A stretch of 64,000 bases of DNA from an uncultured Bacteroidales bacterium (GTDB lineage Bacteria > Bacteroidota > Bacteroidia > Bacteroidales > UBA932). Both the position numbers and the translations under genes were made by a program. Location: NCBI GenBank assembly GCA_900316955.1, contig ONEX01000006.1, forward strand, positions 62,001-126,000. The letters are read 5' to 3'. The notes beneath the pieces were generated by a model. The model was given only the letters and a program-made list of their open reading frames with translations. It made no database searches and was not told where the DNA came from. Shown in pieces: positions 38,068 through 40,830 of the stretch (position 1 is its first letter; each line of letters starts with the position of its first letter).

Positions 38068-38604
38068 ATGATCGACCAAATCCTCACCTACAACGCCAGG
38101 TTCGTGGCCAATAAGGAGTATGAACCCTATGTGACCGACAAGTTTCCCGCCAAGAAGCTGGCGGTGCTCACGTGCATGGACACGCGACTGACGGAGCTGC
38201 TGCCGAAGGCGCTGGGGCTCCGGAACGGCGATGCGAAGATCATCAAGAACGCTGGCGGGCTGGTGCTGTCGGAGACGGATTCAGCCATCCGGTCGCTGCT
38301 CGTGGGCATCTATGAGCTGGGGGTGCAGGAGGTGATGGTGGTCCATCACTCCACCTGCGGCGCCTGCCACATGAGCTACGACGAGTTCAAGCCGCACATG
38401 CTGGAGCGCGGCATCTCCCCCGAGACGCTCGCGGAATGGGAATCCAAAGGCGTCGCCACCTGGCTCGAAGGCTTCCACGACACCGAAGCCTCCGTCCGCC
38501 GGACTGTCGATGCCATCGTGAACCATCCCCTGGTCCCGCAGGACGTGGTTGTGCGCGGCTTCATCATCGACTCCGTAACCGGCGCCCTGACGGAAGTGCA
38601 GTAG
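38068..38604 (+). CDS. Beta-class carbonic anhydrase
   Basis: 178 residues, the short beta-CA type. Hydrates CO2 reversibly. Zinc ligands: Cys36 in CMDTR (36-40, the C-x-D-x-R dyad) and His94 plus Cys97 in HHSTCGAC. The rest (KNAGGLVLSETDSAIRSLL, VVVRGFIIDSVTG) fits the family. Cytosolic, no signal peptide. Has its own promoter and stands alone; supply of bicarbonate for carboxylations is the usual role in anaerobes. The left repeat of the transposase cassette starts 47 bp after its stop. Confidence 0.93.
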   Translation: MIDQILTYNARFVANKEYEPYVTDKFPAKKLAVLTCMDTRLTELLPKALGLRNGDAKIIKNAGGLVLSETDSAIRSLLVGIYELGVQEVMVVHHSTCGACHMSYDEFKPHMLERGISPETLAEWESKGVATWLEGFHDTEASVRRTVDAIVNHPLVPQDVVVRGFIIDSVTGALTEVQ

Positions 38605-38650
38605 GGACCCCGATCCGGGTCCCGCTGAAGGCCGATTCAAACCTTCAGTG

Positions 38651-38739
38651 CAGGTAACGTCCCGAAAAAATGGACGCCACCTTCAATTCTGCCGATATTT
38701 GCAGGAGACGTCCAAAAAACCGGGACGTCACCCGCACCC
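38651..38739. repeat. Left 89-bp repeat of the RAYT cassette (two palindromes)
   Basis: Direct copy of 40002-40090, ungapped, 80 of 89 positions identical; the last 47 bp (38693-38739) are identical. Contains an imperfect hairpin (GGTAACGTCC/GGACGCCACC), a spacer with GATATTTGCA, and a second hairpin GGAGACGTCC/GGGACGTCACC around GACGTC cores. Confidence 0.85.
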
Positions 38740-38746
38740 GGAGCGT

Positions 38747-38932
38747 CTAATCGAAATCAATCTTCTTCAACCGCTTGCGGTCGTACACCTTCTTGGAACG
38801 GTGTACGGCGGAGCGCAGGGACACGGGCTTCCCGTGCTCCGCAATCTCTTCCATGCGCGCCGCCCTCCGCTGCGCCAGCATGTAATCCGCCTGCGTGATC
38901 CGCAGCTTCTTGGGGCTCTTCTTGGGTTTCAT
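38747..38932 (-). CDS. Small basic protein inside the transposase cassette
   Basis: 61 residues starting MKPKKSPKKLRITQADYM, strongly basic and helical, with RRAARMEEIAEHGKPVSLRS and a conserved-looking end KKVYDRKRLKKID. Similar short basic proteins recur in Bacteroidota genomes, without a known function that I can cite. Start taken at 38932; a TACTTTTG element lies 22 bp upstream on the same strand. It lies between the two 89-bp repeats, downstream of the transposase; it may bind nucleic acid, by charge alone. Confidence 0.7.
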   Translation of the reverse strand: MKPKKSPKKLRITQADYMLAQRRAARMEEIAEHGKPVSLRSAVHRSKKVYDRKRLKKIDFD

Positions 38933-38953
38933 GGATGAAAGGGCTTTGTCTGG

Positions 38954-38961
38954 CAAAAGTA
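38954..38961 (-). promoter_or_regulatory. -7 promoter element for small basic protein
   Basis: TACTTTTG on the - strand, 22 bp before the ATG. Confidence 0.5.
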
Positions 38962-38987
38962 CGGTTAATTTGGGGTATTTCCTACGG

Positions 38988-39857
38988 TCAAACGGAATCC
39001 ATCAGCTGGGCGGCCTGCTCGTAGGTCAGGCCGCAGACGCGGGCGATCTGATTGACATGGGCACTGAACCTGAAGTGCAGCTGACGGACGAATTCCACCT
39101 GCTCCTCACGAGAGAGCCGGGAAAAGTCAGGCTTGCCGAACATACTGCGGCAGAGATCCGGAATGGCGGCCAGGATGACTTGGTCCCGGAAAGCCGGGAG
39201 ATTGTCATCGGCATCCAGCCGCTTCTTGGCCTTGGAGGAATTCGACAGGAACCAATTCATCCGCTGGGGGGTCTTGAAACACGCTTCGACGGCCGCGACA
39301 TCGACATAGCTCTGTGGCAGGATGTAGCCATCGGCACCGACCAGCCAGTTCTCCGGGAGCGATTCCACATCCGTGTGTAACAGGCGTTTACACGCCCGCT
39401 TGGAGAATGTCCCCAACGGACGCCCGGCGGGTTTCCGGGGATTGAAAAATACGCCTCCGGTCCCCCAGGGATATTGGCTCGGGTGGGAGCAGATGTTGGC
39501 TGCTACACAGTTCATTTCCACATACGCAATCGCCTTTTCCGGATCTTCGTCATACCAGGAAATGGGATCGATTTGCACACCGTTCCCCCGAAGAAACTCC
39601 TTGACCCCGTACTTACGCCGCAAATACAGGGAGTACCGATGCTTGAAGCCCTCGATGAACGCCTCGGCATCTTTCTTCGAATCCGCCTTCAGGACGAAAT
39701 GCACATGGTTGGACATCAGGGTGAACGAGAGCACGACAACCCGGCTGGCATGCGCCTGGATGGCGACGAAATTCATCCCCACCTTGTAATCTTCATCATC
39801 CCGAAACCAAAGCCCCGCTTTCAAATGTTCCGTCGTAATCAGCCACAACTTCCTCAT
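38988..39857 (-). CDS. REP-associated tyrosine transposase (RAYT, Y1 HUH family)
   Basis: 289 residues. IS200-like Y1 transposase fold: HUH motif in LMSNHVHFVLK with His51 and His53, candidate catalytic Tyr75 or Tyr78 in FKHRYSLYLRRKYG, and the fold end AYVEMNCVAANICSHPSQYPW (111-131). A ~150-residue C-terminal extension ends in a helix-turn-helix-like segment (NQIARVCGLTYEQAAQLM). RAYTs act on palindromic REP sequences by single-strand cleavage; the flanking 89-bp repeats with hairpins are the likely substrate. The frame stays open upstream through the right repeat, but ATG 39857 fits the family and lies after a TATCTTTG promoter. Base composition is more AT-rich than its neighbours, suggesting transfer. 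Confidence 0.9.
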   Translation of the reverse strand: MRKLWLITTEHLKAGLWFRDDEDYKVGMNFVAIQAHASRVVVLSFTLMSNHVHFVLKADSKKDAEAFIEGFKHRYSLYLRRKYGVKEFLRGNGVQIDPISWYDEDPEKAIAYVEMNCVAANICSHPSQYPWGTGGVFFNPRKPAGRPLGTFSKRACKRLLHTDVESLPENWLVGADGYILPQSYVDVAAVEACFKTPQRMNWFLSNSSKAKKRLDADDNLPAFRDQVILAAIPDLCRSMFGKPDFSRLSREEQVEFVRQLHFRFSAHVNQIARVCGLTYEQAAQLMDSV

Positions 39858-39906
39858 AATCCTTCTCAAACACCATCTCGTCCGGAGAACCCGGAATGGC
39901 TTTACA

Positions 39907-39914
39907 CAAAGATA
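39907..39914 (-). promoter_or_regulatory. -7 promoter element for RAYT gene
   Basis: TATCTTTG on the - strand, 50 bp before the transposase ATG and downstream of the right repeat. Confidence 0.5.
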
Positions 39915-40001
39915 GACATAAGTCGATGGATTCCAAGGGCCATCGACACATTTTGCGAAACTATTTTTCAGGGGCAAAGGGCCTGCCGAAAGGGGAAAAT
40001 G

Positions 40002-40090
40002 CGGGTGACGTCCCGAAAACAGGGACGTCACCGTCAATTTGGTCGATATTTGCAGGAGACGTCCAAAAAACCGGGACGTCACCCGCACCC
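40002..40090. repeat. Right 89-bp repeat of the RAYT cassette (two palindromes)
   Basis: First hairpin is perfect: 11-bp stem GGTGACGTCCC/GGGACGTCACC with a 7-base loop (40005-40032). The second hairpin, GGAGACGTCC/GGGACGTCACC, has one mismatch. Ends 5 bp from the stop of the next gene; same orientation as the left copy. Confidence 0.88.
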
Positions 40091-40095
40091 CGCAG

Positions 40096-40830
40096 CTATT
40101 TTTCCACCGTCCGGAGGCGGATTTCGTCGGAGTCGATGGAGAAGCCGACGATGTCCACGGACTTCAGCTGTTTCTTGAGCTGGGGGATGGCGGAGAGGTT
40201 GATGACGGCGCGGCCATTGGAGAAGGAGTCGACGAGGCCGGCGGGGAGGCGCTTCAGGACGTAGGGGGCAACGGCGTCGGCGGCAAGGTTCATCGCCGCG
40301 CCGGAGTCCAGCTGGAGGACCAGGCGGTCGCCGGTCACTTCCACGACCCTGAAATCGACGGAGAAGTTCATGTCCTGCTCCCCGACCATGGGGAGGTCCA
40401 CCTTCCCGTCATAGGCCATCGTGATCTTGTCCGGGGCCGATGTGGACAGGGTGACGTCGCGGCCGCTCTTGTCACGGACGAGCTCGTTGAGGACCTTCAC
40501 GGGGACGGCGACGACGGTTTCCACGGCGGCCGCAGGCGCGTCGGAGGCAGCGGGCGCGTCAGAGCCGGCAGATTCCCCCGCAGCGGGCACGTCCTTGCGT
40601 GACTTCCCGGCCTCGACCTTCCGTTCCCGAACAATCGGGACCGTCTCGCCATCGACTTTCACGTACACGGTATCCCGGACGACGGGGCCGGAGAACTCAG
40701 TCTCGGCGGAGACAGGCGCGGAAGACCCGGCCGGCGTGGCCGAGCGACGGTAAAGAAAAAGGCTGGCGGCCACAGCCACGGCGATCGCCGCAACCAGCCA
40801 CCAGCCCCATTTTCGGCGGTGTGAACCCAT
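40096..40830 (-). CDS. Single-pass membrane protein, unknown function
   Basis: 244 residues. N-terminal basic stretch and membrane helix (about 9-27, WWLVAAIAVAVAASLFLY), an Ala/Ser/Asp-rich linker (about 80-105), then a compact extracytoplasmic domain (about 105-244) rich in beta strands (VDLPMVGEQDMNFSVDFRVVEV, VINLSAIPQLKKQLKSVDIVGF). No family recognised with confidence; it recalls lipid-binding DUF2993/LmeA-type folds only vaguely. Starts 9 bp after ptb, so it is probably in the ackA-ptb transcript. The right repeat of the transposase cassette lies immediately past its stop. Confidence 0.7.
   Translation of the reverse strand: MGSHRRKWGWWLVAAIAVAVAASLFLYRRSATPAGSSAPVSAETEFSGPVVRDTVYVKVDGETVPIVRERKVEAGKSRKDVPAAGESAGSDAPAASDAPAAAVETVVAVPVKVLNELVRDKSGRDVTLSTSAPDKITMAYDGKVDLPMVGEQDMNFSVDFRVVEVTGDRLVLQLDSGAAMNLAADAVAPYVLKRLPAGLVDSFSNGRAVINLSAIPQLKKQLKSVDIVGFSIDSDEIRLRTVEK

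Follow-up and report, generated by a model that had tools for sequence, protein, structure and literature searches.

A RAYT gene between same-direction REPIN-like repeats in an uncultured Bacteroidales genome

When a RAYT gene and a small basic-protein gene lie together between two hairpin repeats, do they form one cassette, or does the RAYT simply stay in place with repeats of its own on each side? The question is raised by a locus in a 64,000-nt stretch of DNA from an uncultured Bacteroidales bacterium (hereafter the window), for which the original prediction, made from the sequence alone, proposed a REPtron-like cassette. The locus and its neighbours consist of the following features:

38068..38604, plus strand: left neighbour, an ORF that is presumably carbonic-anhydrase-like, judging by its motifs
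38649..38739, plus strand: left REPIN, a double hairpin with the first hairpin partly decayed
38747..38932, minus strand: gene for a 61-aa basic protein, a resident bystander outside the element
38988..39857, minus strand: RAYT (Y1 HUH transposase-like), 289 aa, with H51, H53, Y112 and N116
40000..40090, plus strand: right REPIN, a double hairpin with the first hairpin perfect
40096..40830, minus strand: right neighbour, a 244-aa ORF

Anatomy of the locus

A repeat search of the window identified a single direct family, the pair at 38649-38739 and 40000-40090. The two copies are 91 nt each, are identical at 82/91 positions (90%) including all of the final 47 bases, and gave a direct BLAST match of 124 bits (E 1.1e-31). 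No inverted match between them was found at E 1e-4 or better (one of 16 nt had E 0.002), and because each copy is itself nearly palindromic, "direct" is a matter of degree here. Each copy is REPIN-like, in that a short spacer separates two inverted REP hairpins, as seen from the inverted pairs and from the predicted fold, in which the hairpins are strong. The outer arms of the right REPIN pair without a mismatch across 16 nt. The core ACGTCC-N5-9-GGACGT occurs three times in the window, always within the two REPINs, against 0.09 occurrences expected. The original prediction had described an 89-bp pair in the same direction, 80/89 identical with 47 bp perfect, and this corresponds to the inner part of the 91 nt. 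It was likewise correct that each repeat contains two hairpins (confirmed by the self-complementary arms and the fold), that the right copy has the perfect hairpin and the left copy a partly decayed one, and that the RAYT gene and the 61-aa gene are both enclosed.

The RAYT most likely starts at the ATG at 39857, giving 289 aa, since this start is common to nearly all aligned relatives. The protein passed the gathering cut-off of Pfam Y1_Tnp (29.5 bits, cut-off 23) and scored 30.5 bits against NCBIfam REP_Tyr_transpos, below a cut-off of 80 bits that is a naming threshold rather than a biological criterion. All 34 aligned RAYT proteins from the window and other loci match the latter model at E ≤ 0.01, and H51, H53, Y112 and N116 are invariant among them. 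Conservation of the reading frame and of the catalytic residues extends across a wide clade. A search of the PDB with the RAYT sequence retrieved no match at E ≤ 1. The structure predicted from the 34-protein alignment (mean pLDDT 91, pTM 0.72) had four solved-structure matches at E ≤ 0.001; the top match was 4er8_A (E 1.2e-5, TM 0.55 by target length), which is TnpA-REP of E. coli in complex with a REP hairpin, and the IS608 transposase came next. The Y1 domain, the modelled fold and the dispersed flanking palindromes support its placement among RAYTs in the broad TnpA-REP sense.

We estimate a probability of about three in four that the locus is REPtron-like, with a RAYT of a Bacteroidales clade that has its own REPIN on each side, nicks and spreads these REPINs, and is itself mostly static. 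We infer that REPIN DNA exposed as a single strand, such as at a replication fork, would fold into hairpins to which the RAYT would bind. The HUH histidines would hold a metal ion and Tyr112 would nick and rejoin the strand, so that the REPIN could be excised or copied into other intergenic gaps, with each RAYT acting chiefly on the REPIN family that belongs to it. The gene itself would mostly be inherited in place, its flanking REPINs would be resident copies and not transposon ends, and recombination at REPINs could turn the intervening DNA round.

RAYT loci and REPIN families in the genome and genus

The genome that contains the window has 17 protein matches to the RAYT at E ≤ 1 and 14 RAYT-like ORFs with an H-x-H motif (L005-L013, L016-L019 and L021), in which the middle residue is S in L011, G in L012 and H in L016. 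L014 and L015 are near-identical RAYT fragments at contig ends, and L020 is a doubtful match. Nine of the 14 ORFs have a matching repeat pair, direct in eight cases and inverted in one; at the other five no matching pair was found within 1 kb, and the pair of L007 lies just beyond this limit. RAYT matches were present in 53 of 61 genomes, this one included.

We gathered 71 RAYT loci (16 from the own genome and 55 from relatives), dropped three with short flanks, and scored the remaining 68 for one repeat on both sides of the RAYT, within 1 kb and at E ≤ 1e-4. Such a repeat flanked 44 loci (37 direct, six inverted and one both), counts that are not independent because some loci are orthologous (L005/L111 and L006/L025/L027/L134) and because 26 come from genomes picked for carrying the window REPIN. 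No flanking pair was found at the other 24 loci, nor at any of 25 carbonic-anhydrase loci and 54 window positions that served as controls. The direct arrangement had been considered unusual; with 37 of 44 flanked loci direct, it is the usual one here.

The window REPINs have relatives elsewhere. In the own genome (3.1 Mb) the family comprises the two flanking copies, one full dispersed copy at 75-78% and two partial ones. The L006 family has two flanking copies, three more near-full copies at 80-86% and partial sequence, and the L008 family has two flanking copies and four more at 76-86%; all of these counts are lower bounds, as 40 of 55 first-look candidates were scored. The window family consists of two inverted REPs and a spacer that are also present at other intergenic places, the pattern by which REPINs are recognised. 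The hairpin-core pattern was found at seven places in the genome (three within the window REPINs, one within the dispersed copy and three elsewhere) and its reversed control at two. Beside some REPINs lie hairpins of another kind: at L155 and L162, hairpins like those of the L016 RAYT (GTACAAGTC...) share intergenic spaces with REPINs of other families.

Of 12 dispersed stretches, a set that also includes L156, L157, L166 and four more, five (L155, L158, L160, L161 and L165) were compared with relatives. At two of the five, L160 and L161 of the L008 family, the flanks are joined without the REPIN in G003 and G064; the junction is not exact, because the sequence missing there exceeds the REPIN by some 20-30 nt. 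The flanks of L158 have diverged and gave no clear junction, L165 is common to the own genome and G064 with other filler in its place in G003, and L155 is present in G003, G064 and G240. REPINs here are few, and they are gained and lost between genes. The L008 REPIN was found only in G000 and G003 among eight genomes tested. No orthologue of the L008 RAYT was seen in G003, where the RAYT locus at C51 is an orthologue of L007. The RAYT protein of this locus (L213) is 67% identical to that of L007 and the flanking DNA 92% identical over 1369 nt; the G064 orthologue of the L007 RAYT is 98% identical. This suggests either very fast change of the RAYT or its replacement in place.

Across the genus, the window REPIN (right copy) was matched in 27 of 300 genomes, own included, so that the expectation of repeats away from the locus held both within this genome and beyond it. 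A close RAYT match (E ≤ 1e-100) was present in 13 of 26 REPIN-positive relatives versus 8 of 57 relatives not listed as REPIN-positive, and in six genomes (G064, G077, G167, G255, G097 and G019) a REPIN match lay within 1 kb of the best RAYT match. However, REPIN-positive G132 had no RAYT match and G119 had distant ones only.

By our assignment, the close clade accounts for 32 of the 44 flanked loci and other RAYTs for the remaining 12. GTCC facing GGAC near the hairpin tip was found at 19 of the 32 close-clade loci and at none of the other 12; the next commonest tip tetramers, GGTC and CGTC (nine each), overlap GTCC. Hardly any locus has a GT[AG]G foot (1/32 and 1/12, respectively), and basal stems diverge widely between REPIN families. 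REPIN similarity tracks RAYT similarity (Mantel rho 0.29, p 0.0005; with pairs of more than 75% identity left out, rho 0.25, p 0.0025) and approaches background once RAYT protein identity drops under approximately 65%. The GTCC tip is scattered on the RAYT tree with eight changes, at least five of them forced by well-supported branches. As a mark of one subclade the tip was rejected, since the shuffled mean was 10.3 changes and 51 of 500 shuffles were as low as eight.

It is conceivable, although we consider it doubtful, that these RAYTs use a second code, in which a constant GTCC/GGAC tip clamp is read instead of the GTAG foot, the divergent basal stem assigns a REPIN to its owner, and the RAYT segment can also be inverted by way of REPIN pairs. 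If true, a single genome would provide naturally orthogonal single-strand nickases together with their targets. A recognition code could be tested by comparison and by hairpin swaps in vitro, given that 14 RAYT-like ORFs are present in this genome, at least nine of them with pairs, and that relatives have orthologues with drifted hairpins. The locus bears on how RAYTs recognise REPs and on why hosts keep RAYTs.

The left REPIN sits between two convergent 3' gene ends. This position and the strength of the hairpins would suit intergenic terminators or RNA stabilisers that persist beside a RAYT that is a relic or unrelated in action. We regard this explanation as unlikely, because members of a wide clade retain the RAYT frame with its catalytic residues, REPIN similarity correlates with RAYT similarity, and pairs were found around RAYTs but at 0/79 control places. 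Several observations count against the REPtron-like reading as well: copies are far fewer than is usual in a REP family, the GTAG foot is missing, 24 of 68 loci lack a pair, and the NCBIfam score is below its cut-off. The L008 REPIN in G003, where its RAYT orthologue was not seen, and genomes G132 and G119 also count against it.

The orthologous site in relatives

Using the left neighbour as bait, we obtained matches in 95 of 300 same-genus genomes, own included. G064 has the complete window arrangement at 88.9% identity, and L149 (MAG RUG13040) is identical to the G064 locus. In G240 the left REPIN and small gene are followed, where the window has the RAYT, by a gene that is presumably ATPase-like, judging by its motif; the contig stops before the right side is reached. 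The small gene and this ATPase-like gene are also present in G003, with no RAYT and no window-family REPIN. G069 has none of these features between the outer neighbours, and in G247 the site is interrupted by a contig end. These varying states mark the small gene as resident, with REPINs and RAYT gained, lost or inverted independently of each other. The G003 site (L052) contains other palindromic repeats, GGTCTGCGGA and TCCGCAGACC, between the ATPase-like gene and the right neighbour, close to where the window has its right REPIN.

The 61-aa protein matched no family in Pfam or NCBIfam, and its gene was found in 27 of 101 genomes, own included. Ten of the 12 small-gene loci examined have neither a RAYT nor a window-family REPIN within approximately 1.5 kb; the exceptions are the window and G064. 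One further locus of the 12, in G003, adjoins the same left neighbour as in the window. Judged by these comparisons, the small gene is a bystander resident at the site and not part of a cassette. A cassette with a passenger gene was rejected on the G003 site (no RAYT or REPIN), the G240 site (no RAYT) and the scattered small-gene loci. The association of a RAYT with REPIN-like repeats stands from the original prediction, on the strength of fold, catalytic residues, co-location across the genus and dispersed copies; the repeats as ends of one unit and the second gene as a cassette member do not.

A Y1 element requires, at each of its ends, a hairpin in the same direction on the same strand, as established for IS608. 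The RAYT and small gene might accordingly move as one single-strand element of the IS200/IS605 kind, with the direct double hairpins as its ends, and both the predominance of direct pairs (37 of 44 flanked loci) and the near-identical RAYT ends of L014 and L015 on different contigs would suit this. We nevertheless find it highly improbable, because G240 has the left REPIN without the RAYT, G003 has the small gene without a REPIN, and RAYT neighbours are common to different species (L005/L111, L006/L025/L027/L134, L038/L040 and L033/L042). A unit transposon, in which gene and ends move together, failed on these orthologous sites and common neighbours. Contigs C38 and C5 of G000 start within the near-identical RAYT 3' ends (L014 and L015) and then differ, possibly reflecting a recent RAYT duplication that broke the assembly.

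In L150 (MAG SRR1222429_bin.49) and L151 (MAG RUG193), the segment with the RAYT and small gene is inverted between the same neighbours. The inverted segment matches 38704-40089, and its breakpoints are inside the REPINs. Relatives at 89-90% identity are uncultured Bacteroidales or Bacteroidia MAGs. The window orientation looks ancestral, because G003 and G240 have the small gene in the same orientation. These two loci raise the possibility that the role of the REPINs is to invert the RAYT together with its neighbour gene, via host recombination or the RAYT. We give this very little weight: the inversion is the only one among orthologous pairs compared on both flanks, it rests on MAG assemblies with one contig of just 3,085 nt, and the REPIN pair, direct in the window, is inverted in L151, two states that no single reciprocal exchange tried could produce. 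A single reciprocal inversion between REPINs, tried on paper, failed to yield the REPIN orientations of L151. The REPtron-like reading would accommodate an occasional turn of this kind, and the site documents a REPIN-bounded inversion together with low-copy REPIN gain or loss in uncultured Bacteroidales. One-sided flank matches of opposite orientation relative to the RAYT (L026/L029, L028/L120, L115/L120 and L122/L135) may be further rearrangements beside RAYTs.

Comparison with known systems

The RAYT-REPIN locus is genuine and its kind is known; the low-copy, mostly direct, GTAG-less variant with many RAYTs per genome is hardly described. As in the gammaproteobacterial REPtrons, to the extent covered by the available text of Nunvar et al. 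2010 (PMC2817692) and of PMC3116915, a Y1 HUH protein has cognate REPs on both sides, REPs form doublets, RAYT and REP co-evolve, and the gene stays put. In those accounts, however, canonical REPtrons have a GTAG/GTGG foot, REPs inverted around the gene and often hundreds of REP copies, whereas the window clade has no such foot, whole REPINs that are mostly direct, and a handful of copies (lower bounds). REPINs are defined in Bertels and Rainey 2011 (PMC3116915), in the portion available to us.

Closer in taxonomy is TnpA-REP subclass 2.6, which is equated with RAYT group 5 of Bertels et al. 2017 in the accessible part of Quentin et al. 2018 (PMC6006769). As described there, it resembles the window locus in its presence in Bacteroidetes, GT[AG]G-free flanking hairpins, copies elsewhere and a C-terminal extension. 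The HUH-Tyr distance is a median of 82 in that subclass and 59 residues in the window RAYT (H53 to Y112), so we do not file the RAYT under subclass 2.6. Direct REPIN pairs, the GTCC hairpin tip and so many RAYTs per genome lie outside the same description (PMC6006769). The sections of Di Nocera et al. 2013 (PMC3733652) available to us report repeats next to RAYTs in the form of monomers, dimers or terminal inverted repeats, and describe CGTC palindromes that, like the window REPIN, occur in Bacteroidetes, form dimers and contain CGTC. In that text no CGTC palindrome flanks a transposase gene, whereas in the window CGTC lies within the stem of a RAYT-flanking REPIN; it is missing from other REPIN families of the clade. 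IS200/IS605 elements share the Y1 HUH fold and same-direction hairpins on both sides with the window locus, but there gene and ends move as a unit, and here there was no evidence of unit movement. In a literature search that most subscription journals and preprints lay outside, we found no report of direct REPIN pairs flanking RAYTs in Bacteroidales.

In an Rfam search of 11 RAYT surroundings, the only RNAs were two tRNAs, both in L115. In L118 and L036, a divergent ORF of approximately 74 aa, distinct from the small gene of the window, lies between REPIN and RAYT, and the stretch upstream of these two RAYTs aligns in L115, L119, L120 and L121. A different gene recurs upstream of the RAYT in L022, L026, L113, L115 and L117; it presumably resembles AlkD-type DNA alkylation repair proteins.
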